Below the pieces are notes generated by a model that did not search any database, was not told the origin of the DNA, and was given only the letters and a program-made list of their open reading frames with translations. Shown in pieces: positions 1-48,900 of a stretch of 64,000 nucleotides of DNA. The DNA lies in assembly GCA_038049695.1 (NCBI GenBank), contig CP142456.1, positions 66,615,922-66,679,921 of the forward strand, written 5' to 3'. This DNA comes from Cinnamomum chago (Eukaryota; Streptophyta; Magnoliopsida; Laurales; Lauraceae). The position numbers and the translations under genes are program-made. The first letter of the stretch is position 1, and each line of letters begins with the position of its first letter.

Positions 1-654
1 TTTCTTTAATCCCTAATCTCTAGCCCCCTAATCCCAGATCCCTAACCCGATTTCCTTAATACAAAACCCTGACAATAAAACCCAAACCCACATTAACCTA
101 ATTCCTATTTGGGTTCAAGACAAGCTCAATCTGAGATTGGCTAGCCTCTTCTTATCATGCAGAAGTAAAGAGAGGCATTTGGTTTCCCGCCCATAGCTAG
201 TCCAAGGACCATTTTGGACTCAGATTGTCACCCATGGGCTGGATCCAGCCTTTTACATCAATAAACATGTCTTTATTTTTTATCAAGAGAATTAGAATAG
301 CTAAACTAATAACTATTTCTCTAATCACTAATCTCTAATCCAAAGTGAAAGAAAAATTGAAGAGAGGTTTTTGTAGTTGTGTTACAATATAGGAAACCTA
401 GTAGAGAAAGATCTATATAGGACTCTTTAGATTTGTTAAAATCAATTTAAATTTGAAACTTCTCTCTAAATTGGATTCTTTAGATTAGTTAAAATTTATT
501 TTAGTTTGGAGGCCAATCTCTCAATCAATTGCAAAATTGGAAGTCAATTTCTCAATCAATTGTGAAATCGGACTCCAATTTCAAAATCAAAGTATCAATT
601 GCGAAATCGGACTCCAATTTCAAAATTGAATCCTACACCAATAATATATAATAG

Positions 655-687
655 CTAGCAAAATGCCCTCGTGCTAAGCACGGGCAT
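655..687 (-). mobile_element. Helitron 3' terminus
   Basis: Read on the minus strand, this is a GC-rich hairpin (arms 678-687 and 663-674, three-base loop) followed by a short spacer and CTAG (655-658). That is the Helitron 3' end arrangement: hairpin, then CTRR. The next host base is C rather than the usual T. The element would extend rightward, but its 5' TC end was not identified. The same terminus is present in copy 2 near 56823. Confidence 0.6.
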
Positions 688-1875
688 TAGAGGTCATCCA
701 AAAAATATCATTTAATTTTATGAAATAAATAAAAATTTTAATTTTGAATTCATTTGTTTATATTTTATAAAATCTAAAATATAAGTATTTCTCACACATA
801 ACAAATTTCTAGGCTTTCTTAAAAATCACACAATTGAAAATCTAAATTAATAATAAATACAAAAAATTAAAGATTTAAGTAGAAACATGAAATACGAAAT
901 ATTGAGATGGAAAAAATTATAAGAAATTTAAAATATGAGATCTTTCAATTAAAGGCAAGTTTGGTAGTTAGTTGGTTGGGTTCAAGGTAGGTATAGAGGT
1001 TTTTAGATTTTGACTCGAACAGAGTTCAAGACCAGCTCAGATTTTGGTTTGTTTAACTTGCCTTCCCATTGATAAAATTATTACTACTTACTTTTTTCTA
1101 AAACTCATATCATGTAAATAAAGAAAGAAAGAAAAAAAAAAAAAAAAAGACCAAACAAAGAGATATAGAGAGGTGTTCCTAAGTGTGGGGGTGGGGGCAG
1201 GGGCGGGGGTATTTCAATGCCATTAAAAATGGAAGAGTCGTATGGAAAGAGTGAGAGGTGGGGAGTGAGTAATGAATGACATTTTATTGAATTGAATTAG
1301 ATTAAATAATATTAAAAGAGAATTCAAAATTGTGGAGGATAGTCAAAATCAATTAGAGCTGATTAATATTTCAATTTGAAATCAGTCTCTTTCGTATATA
1401 TAAAGGAGGACCTAGACGTAGCCTTGCATTCTATTTAGATGGGGCTTACTTTAACCATTCCATTCACGGACCAACAATGCAATGACTATAGTAGTCTAAA
1501 GGCGTTTTCCCCGTCTCCAATCATCTTATTGTCAATTAGTAGAAAAAAGAAACCCATTAAACCAAAAAAGAAATAGTGAAAAATGAGAATAACAAAAATC
1601 TTAGACAATAGAAAATACACTTTGCTTTGCTTTTGAGATCCATCTTCCATCCACCACTTTCAGTTGAAGAAAAAATAAAATTAAAGTGGTAAAAGCACAA
1701 AATACCCCATAAAGATGAAAAGATAAGAGATTAAGAAAAATAGCAAAAATCCCCTAACTTTATCACGCCCACAAACAAATTTTGAAAGAAATACACTATT
1801 TTTTTTTACTGTAAAGAAATTAATAGATGAGATCTAATGACATGGAAAAGAAAAAAAAAGAGTGTGTGTGTGTGG

Positions 1876-1876
<1 letters not shown>

Positions 1877-1909
<33 letters not shown>
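1877..1909 (+). repeat. 33-base G homopolymer
   Basis: An uninterrupted run of 33 G follows a short GT run. Copy 2 of the block has only a few G at the matching place (near 58010). The tract could form G-quadruplexes on the plus strand. Its exact length should be treated as unreliable because long homopolymers are prone to assembly and read errors. Confidence 0.9.
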
Positions 1910-1910
<1 letters not shown>

Positions 1911-2285
1911 GGAATCTATGCTTAATGTGTCTCTCTTGTAGAGAAGGAAGGATACATAAAACATGAGTTAATTAGAACTCCAGTAGGCTTCCTCAAAATA
2001 AGGGATCTCACATCCCTTGTCTGGATCATTCAGGTAGAAGGAGTGATTCGAGTGAAATCCACACCCCAATATATAGTGTTCGATTTTTCCAAGTGGGGCA
2101 CATGCTTTGTTGATCAAAACATTCATGAATAAGCTCCACTTTGGATGGTCTGTGGATTAGAAACCTATATCATGAAAGTTTTATTGGACTTGATAAATCA
2201 ATCTTCTCATGTCTTGAGTTGGTTCCGTGGGGTGAGGAGCTGTGACAAAAATTCGATGATGGAATACTGACCATTATTATAATTT

Positions 2286-2437
2286 TAAGTGACATTGCAT
2301 AAGAGAGAGTGAGGCTCATGCAAGTGGTCTTAACTTAATTTAGAATACATAGCAAAATTGTTAAGTGGCATTGTATAAGAGAGATCGAGGCTCATGCAAG
2401 TGGTCTTAAATTAATTTAGAATACATAGCAGAAGTCA
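2286..2437 (+). repeat. Tandem repeat, 76 bp x 2
   Basis: Two neighbouring 76-bp units share the phrase GGCTCATGCAAGTGGTCTTA. The same pair is present in the second copy of the large block (about 58382-58530), so the tandem duplication predates the block duplication. Confidence 0.8.
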
Positions 2438-2803
2438 TCAAAAGTCAATAATAACTCATCTTAGGACTGGGCCCACATATCATAGGTCTTGTGGGAAATT
2501 GGATTGTCTGACTAAACTTTCTATCTTTAGGCCCCAATAATATGAGATTTATAATCAAATGGATCGTAAAGATCATGAAATTTTAAAGATTAGAGAGAAG
2601 CTACAAAAAGTAAAAGCTCTTTGAGCGGTGAAGAGAAACATATTATTGTAAAATTCCTAACAAAATCCTAAGATTAAGGATATAATTTGAACCAATTTAG
2701 AAGTGAGTAATTTTAGGAATGGATAGAGATAAAAAAAAATCTAAGTTCTCGAAGCCCAAACTAAATGGAAATCTCAACTCTCCAATCAAAATTAATTTTG
2801 CAA

Positions 2804-2833
2804 CTAGCAAAGCATGCCCGCACTAAGCCTGGG
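2804..2833 (-). mobile_element. Helitron 3' terminus
   Basis: On the minus strand a hairpin (loop TTA between GC-rich arms, about 2816-2833) is followed by ATGCTTTG, then CTAG (2804-2807), then T, the canonical Helitron CTAG|T boundary. The copy-2 equivalent has CTAG at 59993-59996. The 5' end was not located. Confidence 0.65.
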
Positions 2834-3359
2834 CCCAGAAATAAAAACATGTTCAGTTTGTGGCTATTTTATGAGATATTAATTAATGAGAAAATAAATA
2901 TAAAACAAACAAATATACTATTTATTACGGTTTGAAGCATAGTCCAGCCCGACATTTATACAAAGTAAATACTTTTTAGATAAATGAGTATGAAACTTCA
3001 AGTCTTATGTAAATTAACATTTGCAAAATTGCATGTGGCCCCGTCTTTAGGAAATAGAATATGAGGCCCATTTTAAAAAAGTTTATTGCACGTGGAGCCC
3101 ATATGTATAAATCACCATCAAGGATCCACTTTTAAAAATCACAAACATTAAGGATTTTCTAACTATAATAGATATATTAAAATTCTAAATCCACCTAAAG
3201 AAGACTCATTTTAACTTGGTTGGATAGAGTTATTAAGCAAGGTGGATTTTTTCATATGGACTCTTTAAACACCTATCTATAATAGATATATATTAAAATT
3301 TGAATTCACATAAAAGAAGCTTAACAAAAGTGGACTCTGAATTGATTGATAGAGCTTAT

Positions 3360-3640
3360 CTCTAGAAATTGATTTGAGATCCAATTTCTCAAATTGATTT
3401 GAGCTTAGAGTCCAATTTTGCAATCAATTACGAAATCGGACTCCAATTTCGAAATCGAGTCCTACGTCTATAATATATATCAATTGAGGCTCAATTTCGC
3501 AATCAATTGCAAAATCAAGCCTCAATTGCAAAATCGGTTCCTAGCTCTTTAGTATATATTAATAATTGAAATCGAAATTGAGCTCCAATTTCTCAATCAA
3601 TTGAGAAATTGAACTCTTAGTAAATTCTCAATCGGTGAAA
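3360..3640. repeat. Degenerate palindromic short-repeat block
   Basis: The region repeats variants of CAATTGCGAAATCGG and CTCCAATTTCGAAATCG in both orientations, interspersed with TATATATTAA motifs. Related blocks lie at 505-640, 31075-31165, 56690-56812 and 60555-60800. Sense and complementary phrases alternate, so the block can fold on itself. It has no coding content and is probably internal sequence of a non-autonomous element family. Confidence 0.7.
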
Positions 3641-4784
3641 ATTAGTGGAATAACTTTGGATAAAGTCTGAATAAGTTTTAGATGAGTTCGAATAGTTTGA
3701 AATACTCTCATTTTTTGTTTAAACTATTCTTATCTGATCTAAACATGGCCCTCTTACAAAACTCTTTAATCTCCAATCCATAATTGATATATTAGAATTT
3801 TAAATTCACCTAAAGAAAGTTACAAAAAAGTGGACTCTATCCAATTAAAATTAAAATTGAAATTGAAATTAGAAGACATGCCAACATTCATGGAATTTAT
3901 AATGTAGTCCCACCATTATAATTTTATAATATGGGCCCACCTTTTGTGATTGTGACCATGTAATTCACCTTTAGAAATCACAATGTCATGCCCACCTTTA
4001 GAAATTAAAACATGGGGTCTACATCCATAGAATTTATAATGCGGTCCCACCACCTTTAGGTATTCCCAAGTGGGGCCACTTTATTTGAAATAAGTGAGAG
4101 GATTTGAAATCTTTAAATGTCATTATTTAAAAGGCAAGAGATAAGTATGAAACAATTGTGCCAGTGACTTGTTTCTTAAAAAAAATAAAGTTTTTTTGTT
4201 CCAGCTTTCGTATGCCAGCGGGTTAAGATTTTGAGATGGGAATATGGGAACATTCGAATGACACAATGCCAAACGCATTGAGCCCAAGATAGACTCAGAT
4301 GGCAAAACATAATTCATATAGCGAAGCCCAGAATAGTTGGCACAAAGGCTTTGGTGATGATGCTGCATTCAGAATGAATTGCTTCCTTAATCCTCATTCA
4401 CATTTGACGCAATTTTGAAATACATTGCCCTCTATATACAAAAGTTAAGAATGAAAAAAAATATATATATTAGAGATGTAGTCAGCTACATCCAAAAGAA
4501 AACACCAACCAATTGTTAAGAAGATTACAGAGAACCCATTCGTGTTCGACAGTGGTTGCCTACAAGAAATTTTACTTGACTTGACCCATGAAATATGGAC
4601 AAGCCACGGACTCTTCTAGGAGTTGTTTCGTCCGAGCCAAATCCAACAAGGAACCTGTGTCTCAGGTCGGTAGAACTGAGCCTGAGCCTCCATCTGCTGC
4701 CACCTATGGATTGAATTGGATATTGGTATTGTCAGTGCACATCAAGCAAGTGGTGTAATGTTAGGAGGTCGTGCGACACATAGA

Positions 4785-4962
4785 CATCTCTGAACGATCA
4801 CTTACATTTGCCCAAGAGACATTGGCAACAATGAAAGTGATATAAGAGATTTTGCCACCATCCAGCTTTTCGAGCAGCAACTGAGAATGGTGTAACATCG
4901 TAGCCAGGTGCCCTCTTTTGCGCAAGAAGGGCTATCATTGATGCCATCTTCTATGGCCTCAT
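4785..4962 (-). pseudogene. PP2C-type phosphatase remnant, C-terminal part (copy 1)
   Basis: The minus strand reads the phrases MASMIALLAQKRAPGYDVTP and FSVAARKAGW. These match the C-terminal end of plant PP2Cs of the PP2C26/55/80 (SPP-like) group, where this helix precedes a GGK...ITVVV strand. An 11-bp deletion relative to the copy-2 version shifts the frame just after the GW. The upstream part is cut off at 4962 by an LTR, so no product is possible. The N-terminal exons lie beyond the LTR at 7447-7893, and the central catalytic part is missing between them. Confidence 0.7.
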
Positions 4963-14442: not shown

Positions 14443-17400
14443 CTAAGGGTTTACCCTTTTATAGAACTCCATAACCCAACTGTTAGAAGCACTGCATATG
14501 ACTTCACAACCCGAAAATCCAGATTTTATCGCCAAGGCCTCATATTCCTTCTTTGTCCGCTCTTTTCCACCAGGACATTGAACTAACATGAAAACATCTT
14601 GTTCGAAGACGATATGTGAGGAAACATTATTCTCAGGAGCCTCGGGGAGAATTGATTCTACAATAATCACCTTTCCACCATGGTCAGGGAGAGCTTCCCA
14701 ACAATTCTTGAGAAGCTTTAAGCAATGCTCATCACTCCAGTCATGGAGTATCCACTACAAATTACAAAAAACACCAGATTAAGACTTACTAAAGCAGAAC
14801 GAGGAGAGTATCATTGAAGGTTGAGTTCTGCCAGGAGAAATAATTTAAAGAACAGCATAGTAAGTGTAATTTTGCTAAAATCTATTTTGTAAAACCACTT
14901 GATATCAAACTCTATTTGTTATTCTTTAATCATGTAAAATAAGCTTAGATATATATTCTAAGATGAAAAGGTTTCCTAATAGGGCTGAAGTCACATGTTA
15001 TGGAACTAAGATGAAAAGTTTTCCTGATAGGACTGAAGTCACATGTTCTACTACTAATTTGAACTCTACATCCTTAGTGTTGCTTGAACAATTAAAAGTT
15101 CACATGAAAAAAATTTAGAGTTAAGAATGTGGCGAAATAACTCTGCTAAAGCAGAACAAATTCAATTACATTATTTTCATCTCAATGATACTTCTCTCAA
15201 CTGATTCCTCGATAGGGGACTTGGATTTCCACTTTTTGATGTAAATTCAAATTAAAAAGTTCTGACTTTTTTTTCATTTTTTCCGAATAAAGCATTAGTT
15301 ACCGATTAACATAGAATAGGCACTGGAAGGGCACCAGTCTCTCACCTTCATAAAAATAGCATCACCTTTTGGAACGCTAACAAACATGTCTCCCCCAACA
15401 TGCTCCACTCCTAGACCATAATAGATCAATTTGTAAGTCATAGCTTGCATTGCATCAAATAGCCCAAAACAATTAAAAAACAACACTACACTAAATCAAA
15501 TAGGTGGGAGAAAATAAAAAATCAACAGTTGGATAGGAAACAATGGTTGTTTGCCAGCAGAATACGTCCCAACTAGCCAGAGCAATTATATCTAATGGAT
15601 AGGAAAGACACTGTCTTGGTAAACCTCCTGCCTTGTATATGTTAGTGTGATGCACTGTAAAATTGAATTCAATGCCTAAATTATCCGGAAAAACAATTGA
15701 CTCTGGTGTTTGGATTTAAGCTACGGAAACAGTCTCTCCACACGCACAGATAAGATTATGTACATCAACCTCTCCCAAACCCACAACTGACGTGGTGAGA
15801 CTAGTGTACTGGGTTGACATTTTTTAAGAGAAAAAAGAAGCAGGAAATTTCTAGTGAACAAAGTAGGGGGTTGACTCAATACCTGAATAAGATAGGGCAT
15901 CAGCTAAAACATGAGGCAAATCATAATTAATGCCTTTCATATGAGGATACTTGGAAGTGATGATATTGAGAGTCACTCCAATGCCACCACCCACATCAAC
16001 CAACACTTTGAGGCCTTCAAAACCTTTGTAAATGTCAAGGATCTTCCTCATGATCAACGTCGTGTGATGCGACATTGCCTGGTTAAATACCCCATTGAAC
16101 CTTTGGTCTGTTCCTGGGTATTCAAATGCAGTCATTCCATAAGCCCTGTTAAATGGAATTCCCCCTTCAAGTATAACATCATTCAAGTGGTACCTGAGAC
16201 CAATAACCATAGAGTGAGCCTATGAAGACATATAATCCGCACCAAAAAATGAAGAAAACTTATGATCATGGATATAGCAGGTCTCCAAAGTACATTCAGA
16301 GTGCAACTCCATAAGAAATAATATATATCATCATTATTTGATCAAATTATAATTTTGAGGTGGGCGATGTTTTGTAAACATGTTTGATTCAACAATGAAC
16401 TAACTAATCGAGGATCCACATTTGCTTCGGAAAAAAAAAAAAAAAAAGAACTCAAGGATGCAGATTATCACAATTTGTGCAATGGGAATGAATGTAAACT
16501 GCATGTAAACAAAATCTTCAGTAAAAAGTACGATCAGAATGACACGACACAAGAAATTTTAGCCTTTTGATGGAGAATAACTACCCTTTTCATAGATTCA
16601 CAAATCATATTTTGTATGTTGAATTTTGAGTAATGAATTTTGGCAGTATGATAATAATTGGTATGAAATCAAGTAAGTCCTAGGCCCAGTATGCTTATTA
16701 AGTCATGCCTAAATGTTGTTTAGGAATCTAAAAACTGATGCAGAGCAGAGTACCATAGTTATCATCTTGTGAAAGTAATCCAAGACATCTATGCTTTAAA
16801 AATGGATTGGTGTTCCTACGGAACTAATTCTCTAAAATTCTGTAAGAACTATTCATCCATCACAAAGTTAACATATTTTCTAGGACCCACTTGCACAAGT
16901 TAACTTGAATTTTGGGCAGGTGATCTAGTACGGAAGAAACTAAAAGAACAAAAATAGATGATCTGTTATCTTTTTTTTTTTTTTCAAAAAATGATCTTGG
17001 AGCTTGTGTAATGCTTACTCTCAAACTCTTCATTTACACAGTAGTGATATTCTTTATTCTCTCTTCATCTTTGGATTCTTATCTAATGATCTTGGAAGTA
17101 ATCTTGGACGAGAAGAATAAAATAAGAAATCAGTTTTCCTCGCTTGATTTTGGGTCCTGATTAGTTTGCATCTCAGAAAACAGTATCCGAAAACTGTTTT
17201 TAGTGTTTTTTGTGTTGCAAAACTTGTTTGATTATATGATTCCAAAAACAATTTTACGGAATAGAAAACATTAAAACCTGTTTGAACAGTAACCCAAAAA
17301 ATAATGAAAACAAATATGTGATGGTTGTGGTGTGGTGGTGGTGGTGGTGGAAGGGTGGTGGTGGAAGTGTGGACGTGATGGTGGTGATGTGGTGGATGTG

Positions 17401-19486
17401 GTATTAGTGTTGGTGGTGTGGTGTGGTGTGGTGTTGGTGGTGTGGTGGATGTGGTGGTAATTTTAACCTATTACCCATTAACCCGCCCATAAATAAATGG
17501 GTTGGGTATCTATATTAATTAGTGCGGGTTCTAAATGGGTTCAGTAATATGATTTATTTTAATTAAGCAGGTTAATATGGATTACTTATGGGTACCCACT
17601 GAATCGAGTATTTCTTTTTCTATTATATAGCACAAGTAATAAAATCAAATAAATATACTAACATACCAAAAAAAAAACACACACACACACACTAATACAC
17701 TAAAAAATATATACACATATATAGTACACAAAAATAAACAAACACTAATACACCCGACCTGTGACCCACGGCCAACCCAACCGATGACCCACGGCCAACC
17801 CGAAACACGACTGAACCAACCCATGAATTGACCCGACCAGTGCTTTATGGTGTGTTAGTATGTGCGTGTGTGTGTTTTGGTGTATGAGTGTTTGTGTGTA
17901 TTTTGGTGTATAAGTGTGTGTATATTTTGATGTACGTCAATGGGTTTAATCCAACGCTTTATAAACCCAACCCATCATAACCCATTTAATACGTGAGTGA
18001 AAAATGAATTGGATTTATTTTGACTCACCCATTTACCACCTCTACTACTGTGGTTTCTCTTACCACAATTACACACTCTCAGTTGCCACAACCCAACAAT
18101 TCCAACTTTCACCCAGCACCACTCAGCTACCCACTGCCAATATTCAAAAACCACAAAACAATCAAACCAAGTCAATGAAACCCTCACAATTTTTAGACTT
18201 CAAATCGCAAAATTTAATTTAATCAAAACTAGAAATATCGCCTCCCATTCATTTCCCAAAAAATCCTCAACACCACTCATGCCTCCTATTGCACTCTCTG
18301 CAATAATCCAATAATTCAAACCTCCACCCATTACCACTCAGTCATCAACTCCCAAAATCCAAAAGCACACTACAATAATCAAACCCATAGGAATCTCATA
18401 TTCCAAGTCCTTGAATTCAGATGAATCAAAAACTGAAATTGAAATTCTCCAAATTTGATAGTGCTGAAGACGGTAATATTTTGGGTTGTCTTCGGCCATG
18501 ACAATGAGGATGGTCTGCGCCAGAATTGGAGGAGCTTTCATGTGCAGACAACATTAAGAGGGCTATTGGGTTTTTCGGAAGAGGGGTTGAGGAGGATGGT
18601 GCGATGGTAGAGGTTGATAAAGAGGCAGCAGTGACAAAAGTTGATTAAGAGGCAGAAGTGTTCTGTCGGAGGTCTGGCAATTTGGCAATTACGGTTTCCA
18701 GATACATTAAGGGTTTTGGGGTGGGGGGACACTGCAAAAAAGTACAAGTACGGAGTGACAAAATATGACACTACTCACTTAACACGACAAGAACACAACA
18801 TGAAATGATTAATAAACAAATCGGGTATGGGTGAAGTTAATCAAAAGAAATACACAACATGACTCGTTTATATACCGGTTATACACAATACGAACCCAAT
18901 ATGACACAACTCGTTAGACACAAATTAATAAACGAATTGAGTATGGATGGACTGCTTTTTGACATTAACCCGCTAAAATCCGACACGAACCCATTTCACC
19001 CGAAACAATTGATAGACTTAGATACAACTACCATTTATGACACAATACGAACCCAATATGACACAACTCGTTAGACACAAATTAATAAACGAATTGAGTA
19101 TGGATGGACTGCTTTTTGACATGAACCCGCTAAAATCCGACACGAACCCATTTCACCCGAAACAATTGATAGACTTAGATACAACTACCATTTATGACTT
19201 TTTTTCATTTTTTAATAAGTTTATTTGAGGGTATATTTGTCCATTTAAAATTTTATTTTTAGAAAACAATTATTTCACATGTCTTGGGTAGTGCTTGTGT
19301 TTCAAGCTCCGTTAAACTATATGAAATTTGTTTTTTTAAACTTTATTTTTCAGTATGAGGGGTTAAGTGCAACCAATAATAGTTGAGGGAGGTGATGTGC
19401 AACTCACCCTAAGTTCAAGGAGACTATATAATTTGTCCAAAAAAACAGAGTTTTGGTCCTTAAGCTTCTCCTCTTCCAACAATGGA

Positions 19487-19540
<54 letters not shown>

Positions 19541-21322
19541 ACCAAGGCTGCCAGATTATTTTTCTCCCCATCTTTCATTTGTTTTCGTTGTATTTATTCG
19601 CTAAGGAGTGACAACTTCTGCCAAATTAATTGGCAAGTCATGGGCTATGGCAAGGAGTGACGTACTGCCATGAAGATGTCAGGTGAAGAGTCATGAGATG
19701 CAATGACTGATAATTATATTTTGTGCCCACCTGCCATGACCGATGTGAGCTAAATAGTCATGGGCTGCAATGACTGAAAATCATATTCATTTTTTTTTTT
19801 TGGAGCTAATTTATTCAATCTCGTAAAATTAATTTAACTTAAGCTAATTTAACCTCGGTATTAAATATAATCAATATTATACTAGTCGGACTCGTTTTCA
19901 TGATTCAACGGTTATGTCTGTTTGTTCCTCTGAGTTGTCAATGTTTTTGATAACTAAATATATATATATATATATTATGGGTTTTCCCAGGGTCGTCATG
20001 CTATTTTTGTAATTGTCAAGGGGTCTCCATGTCAATTGCTAAAATGTTAGGGTGTGTGGATGAAATTTACTCAAAATCTAAACAAAACCCTACTTAAAAT
20101 CTTGATTAGATTTTGATTGGATATGAGTATCAATCTAGCTTTGGGTATGAGATGGAAGCTAATAGGGGCAATTGTTGAATTTTGTAATGTCAGGGGTCTC
20201 CATGTCAATTGGTCAAATGTCAAAAGAGTGCGAATGAAATTTACCAAAATACAAAACCAAACCCTCCTTAAAAAGTAAAAGAGTAAAAATTAAAAATAAA
20301 AAACAATAAAAGTACTATTAAAAAAATGATACGGTGGCAAAAGAGGTGAGCTGCGGATCTAGGAGGCGGGGCACCCCAAGTTTCAAAAAAAACCCTTTAA
20401 TATTGAATAAATAGAATTTTTGAGGGCGAATTATATTTTGAACCCTGAAAAATTTAAGAACATTCACATTGTATTCTAAAATATTATATTTTTTGTATTA
20501 CATCCTCAATACAATAAAAATATTGCAATGTAATCCTTCTTCTGTTAATTTTCGTTATTCCTTTTGTCAAAATCAACTCTGTTGATGTTTAAAGAATGAG
20601 TAAAGGACAATATTATAATATTTTTAACACATTGACAATAGAATATGAAAATTTTCTCCTTTTGAGGATGTAAAATAAAAAAACTTCAATATTTTGGAGG
20701 TAAGATTTCCCCAATTTCTGAAGTCATTGTTTCAATTTGACCCATCCTGGTTTTCACTACATTGGATTCAAAATCCAATGCAATTCAACATTTTCTTCAA
20801 TACTATATTTTTTTGAGAAACAAAGAAAATAAAATTATAGGATTAATTTCCCAAACAAAAACAAAGAATAAATGGCACAATAAAACCTTACCAGCTCTCC
20901 ATGAAGACCTTGTCATGGTGCAACAAAAACAAAGGCCCCACAGACCCACCATCCTGATTCTTCCTCAAGAACTCGCATATGGGTCCCACACTGTACAGTC
21001 TCTGCACTTCACCATTCTCTCCGGTCCGTAATTGGCACCGTAAGACATCATAACTCGCCAAAAGCCTTAAGATCCGGTCCAAAAGAACCGGCGCGTCGGG
21101 GTTGCGGGTGGGGAGATGAGCCGCGATCTCGGAAGGCAAGAGGTACGCGCCGTTGCCCGCGGTGAAGATGGCATCGATGAGGTTGAGCTCCAGAGCTGAT
21201 TTTAGGGCCATTGGAAATATCACAGCATTGGCTAGCCGGACTGCCTGTTTGCCCACCTCTTCTTGGTCGTCGTGTGGGTGATGAGGGGTAGTGTCTGTTG
21301 GGTTTGTTTGTGCAGTACTCAT
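14443..21322 (-). CDS. Caffeic-acid-type O-methyltransferase (four exons)
   Basis: The spliced reading is 20892-21322, 15883-16193, 15346-15410 and 14443-14754: 1,119 nt, 372 residues, with GT-AG introns in matching phases. Length, four exons and a 65-bp third exon are usual for plant COMT genes. The family transfers methyl groups from S-adenosylmethionine to hydroxyls of phenylpropanoids, flavonoids or alkaloid precursors in the cytosol. A dimerisation region is followed by the SAM motif LVDVGGGIG (208-216), DLPHV (235-239), the catalytic His in HDWSDEHC (273), Glu302 and Glu334 (GKERT). Three phenol-contact positions known from alfalfa COMT differ: Asn131 is His135, His166 is Pro170 and Asn324 is Cys329. 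The substrate is therefore probably not caffeate or 5-hydroxyferulate. The start ATG follows a CT-rich leader. Intron 1 (4,698 bp) is repeat-laden. No disabling mutation is seen. Confidence 0.9.
17318..17458 (+). repeat. Imperfect GGT/GT microsatellite
   Basis: About 140 bp of interrupted TGG, GTGG and GATGTGG units on the plus strand lie within intron 1 of the O-methyltransferase gene. Being strongly G/T-biased, the tract could form unusual secondary structure. Confidence 0.8.
18884..19197 (+). repeat. Tandem repeat, 157 bp x 2
   Basis: Two almost identical 157-bp units (one visible difference, GACATTAACC against GACATGAACC) lie head to tail, each starting CACAATACGAACCCAATATG. They lie in intron 1 of the O-methyltransferase gene. 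The near identity points to a recent tandem duplication. Confidence 0.9.
19489..19537 (+). repeat. (CT)n microsatellite, about 24 units
   Basis: An uninterrupted CT dinucleotide tract of 49 bases lies in intron 1 of the O-methyltransferase gene. Confidence 0.95.
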
Positions 21323-29325: not shown

Positions 29326-30949
29326 ATGGCATCAAGCTTGGTTCAACCCCAGATCCCAAAGCTGACGAAGGAGAACCATGAGAACTAGAGTATCTAGATG
29401 AAGGCGTTATTCGGATCGCAGGATCTATGGGAGATCGTCACCGAAAGATACGTGGAACCCACTACAGAGCAAGAAGTTGCGTACACTCCAGAGCAGAAGA
29501 CTGCCCTAAAAGATCAGAAGAAGAAAGACAAGAAGGCTCTGTTCCTATTCTATCAAGAGGTAGATGAATCAACCTTCGAAAAGATTGCTGAAACACCATC
29601 TAGCAAGAAAGCATGGGAGACCCTTAGCACTATCTTCAAAGGTGTTGATCGAGTCAAGAGGGTTCGTCTAAAACCCTCCTAGCATAGTTTGAAGCTACTC
29701 ACATGAAAAAAGGTGAGAATATTTCGTATTATTTTTCACGATTGCTAGTAATAGTAAATCAAATGAAGGGAAATTGTGAAAAGATAGAAGATATTAGAGT
29801 TGTAGAAAAAACATTAAAATCCCTCACAACCAAATCCAAGCATGTGGTTATGGCTATTGAGGAGTCCAAAGATTTAGAGACTCTCTCAATAGAAGAATTA
29901 ATGGGATCACTCCAAGTCCATGAGCAACGTATGCAAAAGAATAGTAGCTCCATGGTCTTGGAATAGGCACTAGAGTCAAAATTGACTCTAAGTGAGAAAA
30001 AGCCAGGTCGAGGAAGTTCGAAGCGGGGCGGTAGAGGAAAAGAGGGAGCAAACCCTCAAAGCCGAAGGCAGTCTCAATCACGGAGCTCCAACAATCGTGG
30101 AAGAGGAGCTGGCCGAGGTGGATTTGCCCGTGGTCGTGGTAATTCAAGAAGTGTTCAATGCTACAACTGCAACAAGTTTGGACACTTTGCCTCGGAGTGC
30201 TGGAGCAAACCCGCTGAAGGGGAGGAGCAATCTAACTTCGCAGAAGCAAGAGGTGAAGAAAAAGAATTATCCACATTTCTCCTAGCGCAAGAGGAAGGCT
30301 ATGGCCAAGAAAATGTTTGGTACCTGGATTCCGGTACAAGCAACCACATGTGCGGGAAGAAGGAACTCTTTGAAGAGCTTGCGGAAGATGTCAGCGGAAA
30401 AGTAAGTCTCAGAGACTCATCAAAGCTTCAGGTACAAGGTAAGGGAAGTATTAAGATTTATCAAAAAGATGGTGTGCTTGCATATATATCAAATTTGCAT
30501 TACGTGCCCAATATGAAAAGTAATCTCCTTAGTCTTGGGCAACTCCTAGAGAAGGGGTATGTAATACACATGGAAAATCTCTCTTTGTCATTGAGAGATG
30601 TACATGGGAGGCATGTAGCTCGAGTCCAAATGGCGAAGAATCGCATGTTTCCACTCTATCTTAACACAAAGGTGGAGAAGTGCTTCCATGGACTTATAAA
30701 CAATGAGTCATGGAAGTGGCATCTTAGATATGGGCATCTTCACTTCAATGTGCTCAAGCTATTATCCACTACAAACATGGTGCATGGCTTGCCTACTATT
30801 GAAAAGCCCAAGCATGTGTGTGAGGCATGCACACTTGGCAAGCAACAAAGAAACTCATTTCCAGTAGGGAAATCATGGAGAGCAAAAGCACCATTGCAGT
30901 TGGTTCACACAGATATTTGTGGGCCATTGAAGACACCTTCTCTTGGAGG
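29326..30949 (+). pseudogene. Ty1/copia gag-pol, truncated in integrase
   Basis: The polyprotein begins MASSLVQPQIPKLTKEN at 29326 and meets two early TAG stops (29395 and nearby), then a frame shift plus stop near 29680. The last long frame runs from 29982. Domains in order are a UBN2-type gag region, a CCHC zinc knuckle (CYNCNKFGHFASEC), the protease motif WYLDSGTSNHM, the GAG_pre-integrase HHCC zinc domain (HLRYGHLHFN ... CEACTLGKQ) and the first integrase residues, LVHTDICGPLKTPS. Similarity ends at about 30949. Most of integrase and all of reverse transcriptase, RNase H and the 3' LTR are gone. The element is non-autonomous and dead. Confidence 0.9.
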
Positions 30950-31517
30950 TAATATATTACATGAGAAAGAATTTTATCTAAAAGTCTAATATATAAATAG
31001 ATGTGTTGAATGTGTTGGACTCTATATTTAGATGACTAAAATAAAAAATTTCTCCCAAATCCCTAAAATTTCTACTTAAATTAAAATTGAAATCGAAATT
31101 GAGCTCCAATTTTGCAATCAATTGCGATATTAGAGCTTAATTTCGAAATCGATTCCTAATCTCTCTTTAATATATATTAATGGGACTGTGATGCATAGGA
31201 CTGCCTTATCGTCCAACACTCCCCCTCTAGAGTGAGAATATCAAGAAACTTGCTTTTCAAAAAGTTGACAGATGACAGCCAAGTGCTTTAGTGAAGAGAT
31301 CCCAAGATCATATGATAGTAGTGGTAGGATTGAGCGAAATTCTATTTTTGCACATGAACAAGAGACAGTAAATTATTTCTTGCTCTTCCAATAAATGTGG
31401 CTCTCTCCAAGAAAGTAATATAATAACTAATAGAATTTTTACAAGTCCACCAACTGCTTGGGTAATGAATATTTCTTTTTACCCAGTATAAAAAAATAGG
31501 GGAACCCCATCAAATAG

Positions 31518-34030: not shown

Positions 34031-36128
34031 CAGGTAGGGGTTTCTTAATCGATTTTTTTTTTCTCGTTTGATGGCTAATCCGCAGGCGCTCTTAATGGGC
34101 AAAGCCTTATCCATTTTTGATATGTTTGGAATGACAGCCCTCAATCTGATTTGATGGAGAAATTGACGGATAAAAAAAAAACTCTGCTTTGACGAGGAAT
34201 AAAGAGCGGAAAAAAAAAATACAAGAAGCAGGAAACACATTGCAGATTCAACATGAAGAACAGCAGAGACCTGGTGCTCGGAAACGTCTCAGTGCAGATT
34301 TGGAGAACCTAACTGTGAGTGAAAAATATGACCATTTTTTTATTTTGTTTTTTGTTTTAGCTGTTGTTCTCTCTGTTACAATCTCTCGTGTCAATTCAAG
34401 AGCTTTTGGATGCTATCCAGAATCCAGATTGCCTTTTGGTCTGTATATTTTGGAAATAGAATTATTTGTTGATTCTGTTCTTCCATGTTTTTTTAATGGA
34501 TATTCTGTTCTTCCATGTTAATCGATATTCTGTTCTTCCATGTGTTTGGGAAAGTGTGGAAATCCAATCTCACATGAGGTAATGGACATTGTTTATCAGA
34601 TTTTTCTACCCCAAATCAAGATCAGTCTCTACTAATTAGTAGGGGTGGATGACACAAGAAATCAGTGCCTTCCATCATCACACACACAGTGATGACCATC
34701 CTTAATACCAAAATATTCACACCACTCATGATTTGTAGTTACTTCCAAACAGCCTGAAGTCACATCCCATTGTCTTGTCTCTCATGAAACCAAACATAAG
34801 CTGTAAGCCCCGGCATTCCTGCAGACAACATATGTCAGGAGGAATCAAACAAGTCATGGTTGAGTTTGACTCTGACCTGATCAAATTGTATATAAATATG
34901 ATAGTATTGTTTACACAGTATTTCATCCAGCGATGCAATGTAATGTAGTATCCTAATATGTAAAGATGAATGATTACTAATTTGATTATATGAAAGATAG
35001 AAACTATAGAAAATTGTGTCCTAAAACTAATATGTACAATCCAAAGTCAAATAAAATTTTCAGACTGAAAGGCAGCTGGTTTTGAAACCTATGTATAAGA
35101 GAGAGTTCCTGCCTGATACGCAGTCAATGAAGCTGCCTGTTTTTCCTATCTTCCATGATGGAAGATACCTTGTACCTCAAATGGAAACTCCCAAAAAGCG
35201 CATGGCACTTGTGTTGCCTTGTATCTGCATCATTTTTGCTTCTCATGATGCCCCCTGATAGACTCGTACATAGGGCCCTTTGAACCATTACCTCTCCCCA
35301 AGTCAGGGCCAATCTGATTTGGACGAAGCTATTGCTCCACCTATAATTACATCAGAACTGCAAATATTCTTCTATTTTGAATATAGAAGAGGACAAGTGG
35401 TGTAGATCACCCAACCAATGAACAATTCACGTTGGTCAATGGTGTCAAGGGATACACTCGCACAGACAAACCTTCAATAAATTTATATTTTAAATTGATT
35501 TCCATACCTACTTAACTACATTTCTTTTATTACTAATGACTACAGTTTCTTTTTTATAGCCAAAATACTCAAGCTATCCTAATTAATTTAGATAACCAAG
35601 CAAAATGAAAACCAAATCTTAAGAATGACTAACTAAGATTCTTCCATTCTAAGATCCTACTAAAACTTTCCTAACTAAGACATCTAAAACAAAGAAAGAA
35701 AAAAAGTAGTGCATTTAAACACATCCTCTAAACACCACTTTGGATTGTTGGGAAACGCTTTTCCGGCCAAATATCATTCTATTACGCTCTAATTCGAACC
35801 CTACCCGAACCCAAATGGCGCTAAATGAAGATTTTCAGCAGAATGGCATTAAAAAAACCACTGCTTTTCACACCACCCCAAATGCATCAATCCTTAAACA
35901 AACATGTGTTCAATAGCACAGCTACTGATCTTGAATACATCCAAAAAACCAATCAAACGAGTCTTTTTCAAGAAAAAAGCTGGATAACTGATGAAACATT
36001 TCGATCTCTAAACCGAAAAGTAAAAAGGAAATCGATCGCCTCATATCCAAGGACACGAAAACAAATCTAGGGTTAGGGTTTCTACAACCGCTACATATGT
36101 ATAAGATGTGGCGTGGGGGTGTACGGAC
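34031..36128. other. Non-genic or intronic stretch
   Basis: No conserved protein motif was found. It lies downstream (minus strand) of the OB-fold gene first exon and could be its intron, but no exon matching the rest of that family was seen. A minus-strand ...CTGCAG followed by a short open stretch near 34826 is not recognisable. Confidence 0.45.
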
Positions 36129-36378
36129 TTTGATCGTTGCGAGCGGTGAAGACGATGGCGGCGGTCTCGTCGCCGATGAGGCATTCGGCAATGCGGGTTT
36201 GGCGGAGGTGGGCGGAGGCGGCGCGGCCCTTTTGGAGGACGGTGTTGGAGCTGACGACCTTGACAGTGAGGGTGTGGCCGCTCGTCATCGGCTTCAGCTG
36301 CTCCACCTTCGTAAACACAGGCTTCTTCAATGCGGGCTTCACTCCATCTCCTTGCGGTGCTGCTGCAATCGTCGCCAT
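36129..36378 (-). CDS. First exon of an OB-fold nucleic-acid-binding protein gene (At4g28440-like)
   Basis: From ATG at 36376-36378 the frame reads about 83 residues, including KKPVFTKVEQLKP, SGHTLTVKVVSSNTVL, TRIAECLIGDETAAIVFTAR and NDQ. This matches the N-terminal half of the small plant OB-fold family of At4g28440 and At1g10590 (about 130-150 residues), whose members normally continue VDLMKPG...LRNAKIDMFKGSMRL. After NDQ comes A|GTCCGT, a possible but weak donor. The second half was not found down to 33.5 kb, so the gene is either split by a long intron reaching beyond my recognition or truncated. The upstream leader (36380-36480) is pyrimidine-rich with telo-box motifs, so the promoter end looks normal. 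This exon alone could not form a full OB barrel. Confidence 0.7.
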
Positions 36379-36456
36379 GGCTGAGATGGTCGATAAAACC
36401 CTAACCCTCCCTGTTCTTGAAGGAGAAGAAGAAGAAGAAGAAGAGAAAAAAATCCA

Positions 36457-36480
36457 AAACCCAAACCCTAACCCTAACAC
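36457..36480 (-). promoter_or_regulatory. Telo-box motifs upstream of the OB-fold gene
   Basis: On the minus strand, tandem TTAGGGTTAGGGTTTGGG lies about 80-100 bp before the ATG, with a second TTAGGGTTTT close to the start codon. AAACCCTA telo-boxes are common near start sites of plant ribosomal and growth-linked genes. A pyrimidine-rich (TTC)n leader follows. Confidence 0.5.
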
Positions 36481-36803
36481 TCGTGGGATGACTGATGAGG
36501 AGAAGAAGAGAGCGCGGAGAAAAAGGGGCGTGGGCCCACCGGAAAACGGATTGCGGATTAACGGGGTCCCTGTTATCTTAAATTGAAAAAGGAGAGGTGG
36601 GACCCGCAATGAGATAGGGATTGCATTGTGATGGTGGCCCATTAATGATGATCATTTTCATGATTGCGAGATCGGGGTTAAATTGATGGTAAGACCCTCC
36701 AAATGAATAGGCCCCTTGGTGTATTTCATGACGTGTTACTGGACCTAAATTGATGGGAGTGTGACCAACACCAACTCATTGTGAGACTGATGGACCCAAA
36801 TTG

Positions 36804-41127: not shown

Positions 41128-42331
41128 CCTGTGCATCATGACATATAGATTATGGAGTGGTGGGACACCAGGTGGAATCGTTCTAATTATTAAGGAGTCC
41201 ACATAGTGGGATCTTTTATGAGACTATGGGCAAGTTGTCGACTCTTCTCTATTGTGAAGAAAATAATTTCGTCATTGCTCTCACAAAGATCAAGAGATCT
41301 AGGATCTAGCAATCTGAGAACCACTCATATGCAGGGAGGAATGTGAGCATCTTGTCATGACCTAATTAGTAATAGGGTTTCTTGACTTGGAGGGGAAAAT
41401 GAAGAGTTTGGGTGAGGAAGGTTGTAAATTAATATGGGCACTTTAGAAAAAGAAAAAAAGTTTCATGGGGTTCAATTATCTTGTTTTGGCAAAAATTCAA
41501 ATCCCTATTAATAATACGTATTTATTATAATTATTTTAAACTTTTTGATAAAAACCCCATAAAAGTATAGCTTTGTAGATATTATTATGGAATAGTTTTT
41601 TTTTTTTTTAAATTGAATCACCTGACTCAAAATTTAACGTCATCTCTATTCACAAGTATAACATTCCATCTTCACCCACAATATTCCATTTTCATTCTGT
41701 AAATATTCACAACCTTCCAAAGGAAAGAGAAAAAACCAATAAAAGAGAAGATGAAGATGGAATGCAATGGGGCTAAACAAGAAGAAGAAAGCAAATAAAA
41801 AGTAAATAAAATTGGCTAGGGGTACTCGTTCGTTAATATAAAACATTTGGTCCCTCCACTGTTGAATAAAAGTATAAGGGGGTTTTTCCTGTAAAAACCC
41901 CAATTCAAGTTAGGACATGGAATACCTGAACTCACACACACCCATGTAAAAAAAAAGTTTTTTTTTTTAAGGAAAAAAAGTCCATCTTTCTTTGAATATC
42001 ATCTATTTACACTAAGGATATTAGTATTTTTAGCAATCTTTGATTCAACTATCTCTGAAGGACTCTCAATACTTTCTCAATCTAAATTGCAGGAATCTAC
42101 TCAAGAGAAAAGCCAGAAATCACTAATTGTTGTCTGTGGAAGGCCTTTTGTCATGTGATTTATATCCTTGTTACAAGTATTAATAATCTAAAAGTTCATC
42201 ATCAACTGGAAAATATATATGAAACTCAAAAAACAATGAAGGAAAAGGGCGTGTTGGGAGCTCTGCAGCCAATAACTTTTCCTTGAAGAGCTACTCCATC
42301 AAGAGATAACAAGAAATTATATAAGAGGCTG

Positions 42332-42675
42332 TCACATTATAATATATTAAAGTCAAGGGTTTTGGCTTTATTCTTGGCTATCAATTGTAATTTTGATCGA
42401 CAATTATTCATTTTTAGTTCAAATGGTCCACATTCTCTCCCCACTACTTATCTATAGCTCATACAACTACCTTCTCATATCTTTATCTCATCAAACTACT
42501 GACATTTTTACTCTCCACTTTTTAAAGCTCCAATTCTTCCTTTTTATAAAAACTCTCGTGCTACCCCATCTCTTCTGATTCCCTTTCAAACCTGATTTTC
42601 CTATTTCCATCTTGCCTTATTGTGTGGGCATTTTAATTTGCAGGGCATGAAACTGAGCACAGGTTACTGTGCTAG
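42332..42675 (+). mobile_element. Short non-autonomous Helitron
   Basis: Starts TCACATTATAATATATTAAAG and ends with hairpin GAGCACAGGTTACTGTGC running into CTAG (42672-42675), then T. The first 50 bp (including CAAGGGTTTTGGCTTTA) match the 5' end of the element at 39763-40201 in opposite orientation, so they are one family. 344 bp, no coding. It lies about 240 bp downstream of the transporter stop codon. Confidence 0.65.
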
Positions 42676-42915
42676 TCTTTTCTTACACCGGAAGTTATGA
42701 AGCAAACCCACATAATAAATGGCCTCCTAAATTTTAAAATTATATGAATTAGGTATCAAGAATTACTATTTCCCAATAAACCAATAGAATTCTACTTGAA
42801 AAGCAAAACCAAATAAAAGACATCAAATATAATTAAGCAAATTAGAAGTCTCTATACATGCTCTAGTATTTTAATTAAAAAAAAACACAACAGTGAGAGA
42901 CCACACCTACTAGTC

Positions 42916-45900
42916 TCACTGAAACACTGGGCAACCTTTAACCACTATCCCAGGGGCAGTGGGACAATGGGCAAGAGGGCAATGGTCATCCACCTGTAAG
43001 CCCCACCAGGATACCCCAAATACATCTTTAAAATTGAGAGCAAAATAGACAATGATACCCATGAAAGCTACCCCAGCATCTAGCCCAGCTGATAGAACAT
43101 AATTGTGCCTAGCCCACCATTGCTTGAACCTCCTGTAGATAACAAAGTTGAAGATGAAGCCTACTGCACCCCAACACAAGTAGTTCACTGATCTTGCAGG
43201 GGGCATGGATGCTGTAGCCCCTAATATGATGGGGACATTGATTAGCCTAATCCACTTAGTCCCTGGGAACATGCGGGAGAGACCCCACACCAGTATTGGC
43301 AATATAAAACCAATGAGGAAGAACCAGTTCATCTTGGAGTACAGACCAAGGTCTGCGAACATGCGACGAGGACCTACAACACCCCAAATGATGGATGCAT
43401 TGTAGAACACATCATCACCAGGACATGTCCAGGGACTCCCCACCGGCAGTTTCTCTGGGTCGCAGATGTTCTCGACCGTCATTAGGAGCCACCATGAAGT
43501 GCCAAAGTAGACCGATGTTGAGATAATTGTGCCCACTAACTGTATCAATCAAGAAAACCAATGTCCAAGTATTTGAGACATATCAAACTGGTAAGAATGT
43601 ATAAAGAGATGTCATGATCAAACAGGTAAGAGTGTGCTCTATAGAGTTCAAGGTGGCAGGTATCAAACAGGAAAGGAACTGGTTTGCATTACCTGAACAA
43701 CAAACATGGACCTTGGAGGAATCTTCATGTAGTGCCCAAGCTTGAAATCTTGGAGGAAGCTCATCGCCTGTGACATACTGATATAACCATAGGTCTTGAA
43801 AGCTACATTAGCTAGGGGCTTGCCGGGGTACAAGTAACCAATGACTAGCTCTGTAATTACATTTAGCCCCGGTTGCTGCATGCAAAGATTAGCAAAATCA
43901 GTTGGGCAAAAAAAATGTCTAGAAACTTAAAAACCTTGTCTTGGTACTATGGGCTTGCTAGCTAGTACAGTTACAATGGATCATACCAAGGCATTATTTG
44001 CTTGTTGATTTGGACCATTGAATTGGTAAGCCACAACACAAACTCAGGCATATCTAGTGTTCTTACGTGCCCTGATTGTTTGCATAGAATACATAGGAAT
44101 TCATGATAAAAAAAAAAAAAAAAAAAAAGCTCCTAAAAAGGATATTAAAGAGGTGAGGGGTAAAGAACATGAGGTGAGGGGTGGAGGATATGAGGTGGAG
44201 ACGTAGATGGGATTTTTGACCTTCTTAGGGCTTGAATTACTAGACTGACGTCTTGGTATTCATTTCTCATATTCTCTTGATTCAATTTCCATTAAATGGG
44301 ATATTATTTGTTGATCGTTCTTTATATTCACCTTCTATTCTTCTACCTTAACTACTTATTGGAGTGTATAGTATTAGAGTTCCTAGGAATCCAACTAAAT
44401 GAAAAAACTATGCAGTTCCCTGTAATATAGCTTTCCAACATTTCAATTAAAGGTAGGATTGTAGTTTATGTTCTTTAGCCCATCTGAGAGATTGTTTGGA
44501 TCAATGAGAAAATTCTATCAATTGAACAATCAGGTAGGCTACAGTATATCGGCGCATAACATTGATCATACTACTGAGAAGAGCTACCTGGTTTGTTGTT
44601 GCTTGAATGACTCCAATTGGGAGAGTGAAAAAGAGAGCTATAGCCGCAGCAAGAAAGAGACCCCAGTAAGGAAGTTGCATCTGCTTATGAAAACCTTCAC
44701 AAGTGTAGAGGGCGAGACCACCCACAACAGCTAGGATTATGAGAAACCACCAGTGAGGAACAACCGCATAGTTTTTCTTCATCGTTCTGGTGTGGACGTC
44801 TTCGAACTCAGTTTTGTAGGTCGATTTGGCTTGCCTCCAGATTGTTCTACAAAAACAAATAGATAATACTTCAGACATAATATTTTGAGATAGTAACCTA
44901 ATATAGAAATTTGGAGATGGCTTTTAGAGACAATGACATTTATTGTACGAACCCCAACAGCAAATGATGTGAAAAAAGTGAAAGAAAAATGATGTGAAAA
45001 AAGTGAAAGAAAAACAATTACCTTCCATTGAAGAATGCAACGTGAGAAATCGCAGAAGAAAGTGTTCCAAAGCTCAATCCATATGTGAGTGCAAAAAAGA
45101 TGCTAAGGTAGATCTTACTGTAAGCATCATATGCCTCTCTGTTGAAATCGAAGGTCGCTGGGTTTATAATTTGCGTAACATTGTAACTATGCCCCTTGCC
45201 ATCAAACACATGTGAAGAGATGATTGGAAATCGCTTCGCTTCGTATGCATTAGTCCAGTAAAAAATAGGGTTCAACATGTAAACAACTATGAAGAAACCA
45301 GCCATCACATTCACAATAGCATAGAATGGGGTTCCCAATGGACTTCCTAAGAAGCCAGCTACAGCATTCCAGTCGAGGCCAAAAGAACCGATGCCTAGGC
45401 CATTGAGACCAGAACCAATTTGTTGGGCTGTGACAGATTTTGTCCAAATCCAACAAACAAATGAGAGGGCAGTTATCGAAGGGAAGAGGTAGTTGGGGAC
45501 AATGTAGTAACAGAAGCTTGCGATGAGGACTATTAGAAAGAACTGGAGTCTTGTTAGTCCTCCCTTAGGCCTCCTCTCTGTTTCATTCAATGCCCTACAA
45601 ATTCACAGGAAAAGTTAGTCATACATTTGAGATCATATTTGTGTGTATTCTTCTTGGTTCAATGCAAGAAGTATCCTACAACTTAATATAAACTATTTAG
45701 TGAGTATGATGTATCATGTGTCTGTATGAGGGAGGGAGAGACCTGAATAAGGAAACCTGAACAAGGTTGGAGGGCCACCACATATAGGGAGAATCAACAA
45801 GAAACTTCCTGAAAAGTCCAGCCCAACTATATCCAAGCATCTGACATTTCATTGAAATAAAATCAGCACATTATCTATGAAATTAGAATTTTCACAGAGT

Positions 45901-48900
45901 CTCATTAAATCACAATGTTCTTGAATGATTGTCCATATTGCAAATCCTATTTGTTTGAATTGCCCAATCAATGCATGAGGAGACCCATCAGATTAATTAC
46001 CCAAAATGATGGATGGAAGTCATGGAACAATTTTTCAATGATTCTAAACACTCTAATACTGCTTCAGAGTCCTCACTGTACCAAATGTATTGATTATCAA
46101 TTATGTATATTAAAAAAGGTCCATATCCTATGGTAGATAACGTTTTGGGGGTAATTGGGCAATCCAAGTTTTGTTTCTAGCCTTAGCAGGTTGCGCCAGC
46201 AAATGTAGACTACCTAACACAATGTTTGTTTTTCAAGAGGTAAACTGGAAAGTGTAGGAAAGTAAACCCTGCGGTAAGTATTTCAACTTTACGCATGTTA
46301 GGCTCATGTTAGGCTGATGCCCATAAGTCAAAAAGTAAAGTCTAGCCATAAAAAAACTTTTATTTCATGAAATGCAAGTAATTAAACTGATTACTTCTAT
46401 CAACTGTTAACTTCTCATCTCATTTTGAATTATTTTACGCCATAAAAAACAAACATAAATGCACTTTACTAGAAAGTATGCTTATGTACACAACTATTAC
46501 CTTTCCCATTTATTTGAGATTTAGTTATATTACTTTCTAAGTAAACTATTCAAACACCACCTAAATGGTCATCAGTATACAACAATAAAATAGAAGATTA
46601 CTTTTTAAGTAATGACTCACCTGGGTGGTGAGAGACAGCAAGAATGCAGCCCAAGGGCTCATGCTCCTGTGGTAAAATGCCTTCACTATGGTAATGATAT
46701 TCACAGCATAAACAGAACTTGAGCCTGAACTAGCAAATATGGTGATCAGGACATGCTCTTTCATGCTGAAAGGCCCTGGGTTCAGTGTAAACGACCATTT
46801 TGTCATTGGAACGCGGATAAATTTCTTCGGAAGAGTCGCGGCCATCAGCTTGCCAATGGGAAGAACAATGATTTGAGCAGAGACAGATGATATGGAGAGT
46901 GGATTTTGACGGTAGCCAAAGAATTGATTCAAGAAGGCCAATAGAACGCAGCTGATCAGACCCAAAACCCATGTTCGGAAGGTCAGAGCCGGCATTGTTG
47001 GATCATCAGTGATTGGAACCGTGAGTCTAACTTGTTCGATAGGACAATCATTCTCATCTGCAACATAGAAAACCAAAAAGAAGGTTATAGATATTGTTTA
47101 GAATGCTAAGATCCTTTTACTTGCTAAAATAGATAGGAATTCATGAAGGTATGAGCTCTACTAAGGAGCCGAGGGATGAATTATATGGGGGTGGAGATGT
47201 ATATCTGGCTAGGCGTTCAAATTTTTTTTTTAATCTCTACCATTGATTCAATTCTTATATATGAAAGCAGTTGAGAAATCAGTCTGCATTTGTTTCATTG
47301 ATTTTGACTCCACCCCCTCCCCCCAAACCAAATTCAAGTTGATTGAATGATTTTGATGTGTCTTAAATCCAATCCTTCCTTTTATTTCTCCTTAAATCCT
47401 CTCCAACAGTTTTTAAAAACTATAGTCCTCTCCTCTTCCTCACTGGAACTTGCGCATTTTGCAACTTCTCCACTTTTAATGTACATGATCCGTTATCTTT
47501 TCTTATTCCTTTCTCTCTCCAGCTCCTCTATTCACGAAAACAAACTCACTTCCACCATCTCTCTCTTCTACCTATCCAAATACACATCTCTCTATGCGCC
47601 TATACAAACACACTATTGCATACCTGTCCGCCCTCCTCTCACTTTTCTTCTAGAATCTGGGTTCTTGTGAAGGCTTGGATATGTATGTGTGGTGTGGGTG
47701 GTGAGACAGTTCTCAGTTCAATAGTTGTTTTTTGTACAACTTTTTGAGCTCGAAGCTAAATCAGGCGCTCAGGAACAAAAAGGATGGAACTAAAGAATTA
47801 GGAAGGGTCTTTTCGAGTGTTGGAGAAAAGGAAGGTCTACCTCAATGATTTTCAATTATAATGTTTTGGATGGAATGTTTTGAATTTTGTATTGAATTTT
47901 GGAATCTTGCTTTTTATATGTGGTGAGTAGTGTTCTTTTTTCTTTTTTTTTTAATCAAACAATCTTGTAGTAATGTGGCTTAATTTAAACATTGTTATGT
48001 GTTGCTTTCAATTTTCATGTATGAACAAACCCACTTGTTGTTTTGTGTAGTTAGTTTAGTTGTTAATTTAAATGTTGCAGTTTCTCCTTTTTGTAATGTC
48101 GTAGTACCAAACGGAAGTATGTATAAGAAGAATTTACATCAATAGAATTTACTTCAATTGAAATCTACCAGATTGATTTTGACTATGCTTTGTAATTTTG
48201 ATAATCATTTGATTACAATCTAATTTATACATGCGGTTACTAAAAGTTTTAAATCTCTACTTTCTCATTTCAATCTCTTCCACTACCCCACCATCTAGCT
48301 AATTTATCTTCCCTAACATGTTATTGAGGGATACGATCACAGAAAACTTGGATTCGTTTTTCAAAATCTCAACATCTTTAAGAACTCTAAGATCATATTT
48401 TATGACACTTTTGGTGTTTGAGCTCCTTATCTTCTCTTCTTGAGTTATATATTTTTATTTGATTTCCAAACAACATATACTTATCTCCTTAAGAAGGACC
48501 TAGAGATTGGATGGACTTCAATTAATTTTGACGTAATGGAAAGTCGCCCAAATATCAATTTTTCTTGGCCATACTCAACCGCAAAGGGTTTGGGGTTTGT
48601 GACGCCAAACCCACCCTGTAACTGGTGTTGGTCATGTTGACTTTATTCATTTTAAAAATAAAAGGGGTACTCATGAGATGGTTAGGAATGCAACGCATGA
48701 TTGTATTGTGTATTACCACTTGTGCTACCACAACTTTGCTTTGAAATATTTATTTAATAATATATAAGTTAAAGGTAGACAGCTCAATACAATTCATAAG
48801 GAAAATAAATATTTTAAATGTCATAAAATCTCAAAAATCTTTATATCATGAATGATAAGCACGGGCGTGCTTTGCTAGTGTTCATGAAAGGGAAGGTTAT

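Follow-up and report, generated by a model that had tools for sequence, protein, structure and literature searches.

A COMT-like O-methyltransferase gene with an altered substrate pocket in a tandem array of the Cinnamomum chago genome

The substrate pocket of COMT, the O-methyltransferase (OMT) of lignin synthesis, can be described by 13 residues that bind or position the substrate, as listed in PMC5916939, which cites structural work on the alfalfa enzyme; 11 of the 13 are given also by PMC3734214. For the sorghum enzyme, docking and earlier structures indicate that two asparagines orient the acceptor ring by hydrogen bonds, and the sorghum enzyme SbSOMT, recruited from COMT, is described in the same source (PMC10261104) as carrying Ile and Phe at both orienting Asn positions, as methylating neither caffeate nor 5-hydroxyferulate, as bis-methylating resveratrol, and as having its resveratrol activity abolished when both residues are mutated to Asn. 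Three COMT paralogues of Brachypodium, with 7 or 8 of the 13 sites changed, are reported to have low or no activity on the common COMT substrates, the catalytic His being missing in two of the three (PMC3562662), and barley paralogues without the substrate residues have been classed as COMT-like (PMC6381794). According to PMC12013660, the peach enzyme PpCaOMT methylates caffeate and has Gln at position 323, a residue given also for CsCaOMT; the same report attributes the choice between N- and O-methylation to three residues, which in the ANMTs are Cys271, Asn298, and Arg324.

Here we describe a COMT-like gene in a 64,000-nucleotide stretch of Cinnamomum chago DNA (C6:66615922-66679921, hereafter the window) and its relatives in the same assembly (1.06 Gb in 14 contigs). 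Splicing of four exons on the minus strand at GT-AG sites yields an open protein of 372 residues, hereafter the window OMT (Table 1), and the clean exon structure claimed in an earlier note on this DNA is thereby borne out. Enumeration gave three in-frame exon combinations, one of which disrupts the family motif around exon 3; the remaining two differ by a single residue at the tandem acceptor of that exon, and we adopted the option that restores [11 protein letters not shown] / [10 protein letters not shown]. A suspicion that DHGGKV contains an odd extra residue was dropped, as the sorghum COMT chain shows LPEKGGKV at that loop. All three intron positions agree with those of the Citrus OMT genes described in PMC4994406. 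Brassica COMT1, as reported in PMC5104432, usually has four exons and a highly variable first intron of 85-2742 bp, a range that the first intron exceeds here.

Table 1. Annotated features of the window (positions are those of the window).
Feature	Position	Strand	Remarks
OMT exon 1	20892..21322	-	start codon at 21322; residues 1-144; carries L134, H135, F140 (COMT M130, N131, L136)
OMT intron 1	16194..20891	-	4.7 kb; GT-AG
OMT exon 2	15883..16193	-	carries P170 (COMT H166) and SAM motif LVDVGGGIG
OMT intron 2	15411-15882	-	shorter than intron 1; GT-AG
OMT exon 3	15346..15410	-	[21 protein letters not shown]; tandem acceptor 15410/15407 settled by homology
OMT intron 3	14755-15345	-	shorter than intron 1; GT-AG
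OMT exon 4 with stop codon	14443..14754	-	catalytic H273, D274, E302, E334; changed Q321, F324, Q328, C329
Retrotransposon polyprotein fragment	29967-30989		zinc knuckle, GAG-pre-integrase, and Pol_BBD domains
Ssb-like OB-fold protein gene, first part	36091-36651	-	
OPT oligopeptide transporter gene	41540-48560	-	Pfam PF03169; in the same tandem segment as the OMT

By its domains, the encoded protein belongs to the plant class II (cation-independent) O-methyltransferases, with Pfam scores of 234.8 bits for Methyltransf_2 (cut-off 22.3) and 61.8 bits for Dimerisation (cut-off 25.6). Residues were matched by alignment with alfalfa COMT chain 1kyw. The catalytic residues H273 (H269 in COMT), D274, E302 (E297), and E334 (E329) are all retained, as are G212, D235, D255, M256, and K269 of the SAM-binding site, so that the window OMT has the catalytic His, Asp, and two Glu and the SAM residues that mark a class II OMT.

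Within the pocket, 6 of the 13 substrate residues are retained and 7 differ (M130L, N131H, L136F, H166P, I316Q, I319F, and N324C). The earlier note had named three of these replacements, N131 by H135, H166 by P170, and N324 by C329; all three hold in the 1kyw alignment, but the list was short by the other four. Its remaining observations on the residues agree with the same alignment: the SAM site, His273, Glu302, and Glu334 are intact, the equivalents of Phe172, Phe176, Met180, and His183 are kept (as F176, F180, M184, and H187), QC replaces HN preceding PGGKERT, and HH replaces NQ preceding DKV. The six COMTs with structures in the PDB retain 12 or 13 of the 13 residues, and by this measure the window OMT is not a canonical lignin COMT. 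The Clarkia (iso)eugenol OMT (IEMT, 3reo) likewise retains six, although it is 57% identical to the window OMT and has other replacements, keeping both H166 and N324. We rejected alternative splicing that would restore the usual pocket residues, because all seven changed codons are intra-exonic and distant from the alternative junctions, and also because the four intact gene copies of the same assembly share six of these changes.

The best PDB matches of the window OMT are LcCOMT (7v6j), an O-methyltransferase (6i70), alfalfa COMT (1kyw), and pCOMT-S (6iwt), at 60-62% identity, compared with 74-92% among those four themselves; for the monocot COMTs 3p9c and 4pgg, identity is 52-53% with the window OMT and 61-65% with the same four, which places the window OMT about as far from the eudicot COMTs as the monocot COMTs are. 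With canonical COMTs (MsCOMT 1kyw, LcCOMT 7v6j, SbCOMT 4pgg, and, by sequence, C3:120.288 of the host genome) it shares the fold family, the domains, and the retained residues listed above; it departs from them in the seven changed residues, N131, H166, and N324 among them. SbSOMT, compared through the residues described in PMC10261104, is similarly COMT-derived, has lost both orienting Asn, and retains its catalytic residues (the Asn-Asn spacing in the sorghum chain is consistent with N131 and N324 in our alignment). Where SbSOMT has Ile and Phe, however, the window OMT has the polar residues His and Cys, and it thus falls outside the hydrophobic type of stilbene OMT that SbSOMT represents. 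It fits the definition of a COMT-like paralogue used for barley in PMC6381794: like HvCOMTL and BdCOMT1-3, it is a COMT paralogue without some of the substrate residues, whereas several of those proteins lack the catalytic His and many have A131, as described in PMC6381794 and PMC3562662, and the window OMT keeps the catalytic His and has His at 131. A literature search on the combined pocket-residue names found no report on the window enzyme.

A search of the assembly with a C-terminal query of 117 residues returned at least 73 matches. Arrays on C3, C6 (67.6-68.2 Mb), C7, and C11 match at about 49-73%, with weaker matches elsewhere; these arrays were sampled rather than covered in full, and the copy counts, which come from exon-4 and MsCOMT queries, are lower bounds. 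Among 21 loci examined (20 and the window), 16 gave gene models; no model was obtained for L011, L017, L018, L019, and L025, which are absent from the tree, and the L015 model, truncated at 318 residues, was retained in it. N131, H166, and N324 are present together in 3 of the 16 models (C3:120.288, C3:120.412, and C7:58.930 Mb), which retain 12 of the 13 pocket residues, are 71-74% identical to alfalfa COMT and 63-64% identical to the window OMT, and are likely to serve as the lignin COMTs of the host genome. Nine other models retain 2 to 10 of the 13, so that pocket change is common among the COMT paralogues of this genome; it is seen also in copies that look degenerate. One paralogue (C3:120.464 Mb, L021) has L130, H131, and F136 as in the window OMT and yet falls within the C3 branch, a pattern suggestive of parallel change, and Pro at 166 occurs, among the 24 rows of the tree, in the window lineage only.

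In the tree, the four intact copies group together at 100/100, with a stem of 0.46 changes per site beneath them. Their lineage joins the other proteins of the COMT type at an open fork, as the window protein did in an earlier nine-protein tree. The clustering with a non-COMT clade that the earlier note had looked for is therefore not seen in the strict sense. Clade tests rejected two named groupings (p-AU 0.008 and 0.021), but these results bear little on the window lineage, because the groupings were drawn across the branch that joins C6:67.956 and two more distant paralogues. The loci at C7:58.914 Mb (L023) and C9:70.838 Mb (L028) are more distant OMT paralogues, whose best model has three exons and is without intron 1.

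The window OMT belongs to a tandem array of at least five near-identical copies (95-98%) on C6, at 66.630 (the window OMT), 66.709, 66.789, 66.858, and 66.927 Mb, spaced 68-80 kb apart. Four of the five have full open frames and hold L130, H131, P166, Q316, F319, and C324 in common; the copy at 66.927 Mb is set apart from the other intact copies by L136 and V162. At 66.858 Mb (L011, C6:66857300-66867200), a one-base deletion in exon 1 shifts the frame and leaves the copy with no open model, and this copy is probably a pseudogene. DNA flanking the OMT is found again around each of the four other copies, 96-99% identical. The OPT gene, about 20 kb upstream of the OMT, has counterparts of 99.1-99.6% identity at the expected offset in two sampled neighboring units (L029 and L030); the amplification is thus segmental and recent.

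We favor, with moderate confidence, the interpretation that the window OMT is a working class II OMT descended from a COMT-type ancestor, that its lineage was freed from lignin duty by the canonical COMTs of the host genome, that tandem amplification came later, and that its acceptor has shifted. By homology, a homodimer would bind SAM at the GGG motif, and H273, oriented by D274, E302, and E334, would deprotonate a phenolic OH, which would then attack the methyl group of SAM. His and Cys stand in for the two Asn that hydrogen-bond the acceptor ring in COMT and, with Pro in place of His166 and Phe at two further positions of the wall, the ring should be held differently, so that the acceptor is probably a phenolic other than caffeate or 5-hydroxyferulate, such as a stilbene, a flavonoid, or a simple phenol. 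Catalytic activity, loss of caffeate use, and substrate class are all things that we infer. In favor of a changed acceptor we count the intact frame, domains, and catalytic residues, the seven altered substrate residues and the fact that six of them are common to the four intact copies, the constraint on those copies described below, the canonical COMTs elsewhere in the genome, the O-type selectivity residues, and the precedents of SbSOMT and the Brachypodium paralogues as described in the reports cited above. Against it we count the weak pocket enrichment described below, the polarity of His and Cys, the caffeate-methylating PpCaOMT with Gln 323, the frequency of pocket change in the family, and the open fork in the tree. 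On this balance, the suggestion in the earlier note of a working enzyme with a changed substrate, outside lignin synthesis, appears likely, with the reservations that the Gln of its QC phrase is found in a caffeate OMT and that clustering with a non-COMT clade is not seen in the strict sense. The window OMT would probably be one more COMT paralogue with a different phenolic substrate, reached in a way that is ordinary for the evolution of plant enzymes, and a new case of a known kind (the COMT-like OMTs), since cases are already documented in which relatives of COMT were recruited to new acceptors.

The alternative that survives best, although we consider it unlikely, is that the enzyme remains good at methylating caffeate-type catechols, its preference having broadened or shifted, and that the pocket changes are tolerated drift. 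Compared with alfalfa COMT alone, 142 of 362 aligned positions differ, and 7 changes among the 13 pocket residues are not unusual (P 0.21), meaning that the pocket is no more divergent than other parts of the protein; it has, moreover, kept six of its residues, and every catalytic residue is retained. Some caffeate activity could persist, given the polarity of His and Cys and given that PpCaOMT, which has Gln at 323 as the window OMT does, accepts caffeate (PMC12013660); for the latter reason a changed substrate should not be read from the Q of QC, and we rejected the QC phrase as a whole as a mark of one. On the other hand, both of the Asn that orient hydroxycinnamates are lost along with His166, and SbSOMT and the Brachypodium paralogues are reported to have lost or lowered caffeate use (PMC10261104, PMC3562662). 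At columns invariant in the six PDB COMTs, furthermore, change is commoner in the pocket than elsewhere (6 of 12 columns there, compared with 38 of 174 overall, P 0.025). This enrichment is modest: when only changes common to all four intact copies are counted, it involves 5 of 12 pocket columns, with P 0.036 for nine reference COMTs and 0.083 for six, and the same test gives P values of 0.0008 for IEMT, 0.004 for C3:120.464, 0.025 for both C6:67.956 and C11:32.131, and 0.28 for C6:68.225, so that the signal in the window OMT is weaker than in IEMT, a proven case, and no stronger than in several paralogues.

It is quite improbable, in our view, that the gene is a decaying duplicate without a useful product in a family that expands and contracts, as the exon 1 frameshift in one of the five tandem copies and the lack of an intact model at several other examined loci (L017, L018, L019, and L025) might suggest. 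Full open frames persist in the other four copies, and these look constrained: pairwise dN/dS is 0.23-0.30 in five of the six pairs (the sixth differs by one synonymous change only), and the widest pair shows 11 nonsynonymous changes among 22, where about 78% would be expected to be of this type (P 0.003, the site counts being approximate). Catalytic and SAM residues have, in addition, been retained along the stem of this group. An N-methyltransferase of the anthranilate type, an idea prompted by Ruta ANMT, whose similarity to the COMT-like PpCaOMT exceeds 74%, can be rejected with near certainty, as the Cys, Asn, and Arg that the ANMTs have at the positions of COMT D270, E297, and H323 are absent from the window OMT, which has there Asp274, Glu302, and Gln328, the O-type set that PMC12013660 describes for PpCaOMT (the two being compared at these positions only).

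Returning to the shifted-acceptor interpretation, a bolder extension of it, which we regard as doubtful, would have the H131/P166/C324 pocket confer a new acceptor specificity within the COMT clade and serve a lineage-specific pathway, with selection for dosage having amplified the gene to five tandem copies within a 68-80 kb unit that also holds the OPT transporter gene in the three units where this is visible. If the acceptor has changed, the array would offer a natural test of the pocket residues that turn a lignin enzyme into one of specialized metabolism, for which the same genome supplies canonical-pocket COMTs to compare and the array supplies two pocket variants of its own. If it has not, the annotation is still corrected, in that the gene is COMT-like and should not be counted as a lignin COMT.

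The window contains repeated DNA besides the features in Table 1. Its left end (1-4961) is found again near the right end (56170-62327) as four blocks that are 93-97% identical and lie about 56 kb away, and a direct repeat of about 770 bp lies at 50696-51462 and 54502-55270, the two members being 97% identical, 3.8 kb apart, and possibly a pair of terminal repeats.
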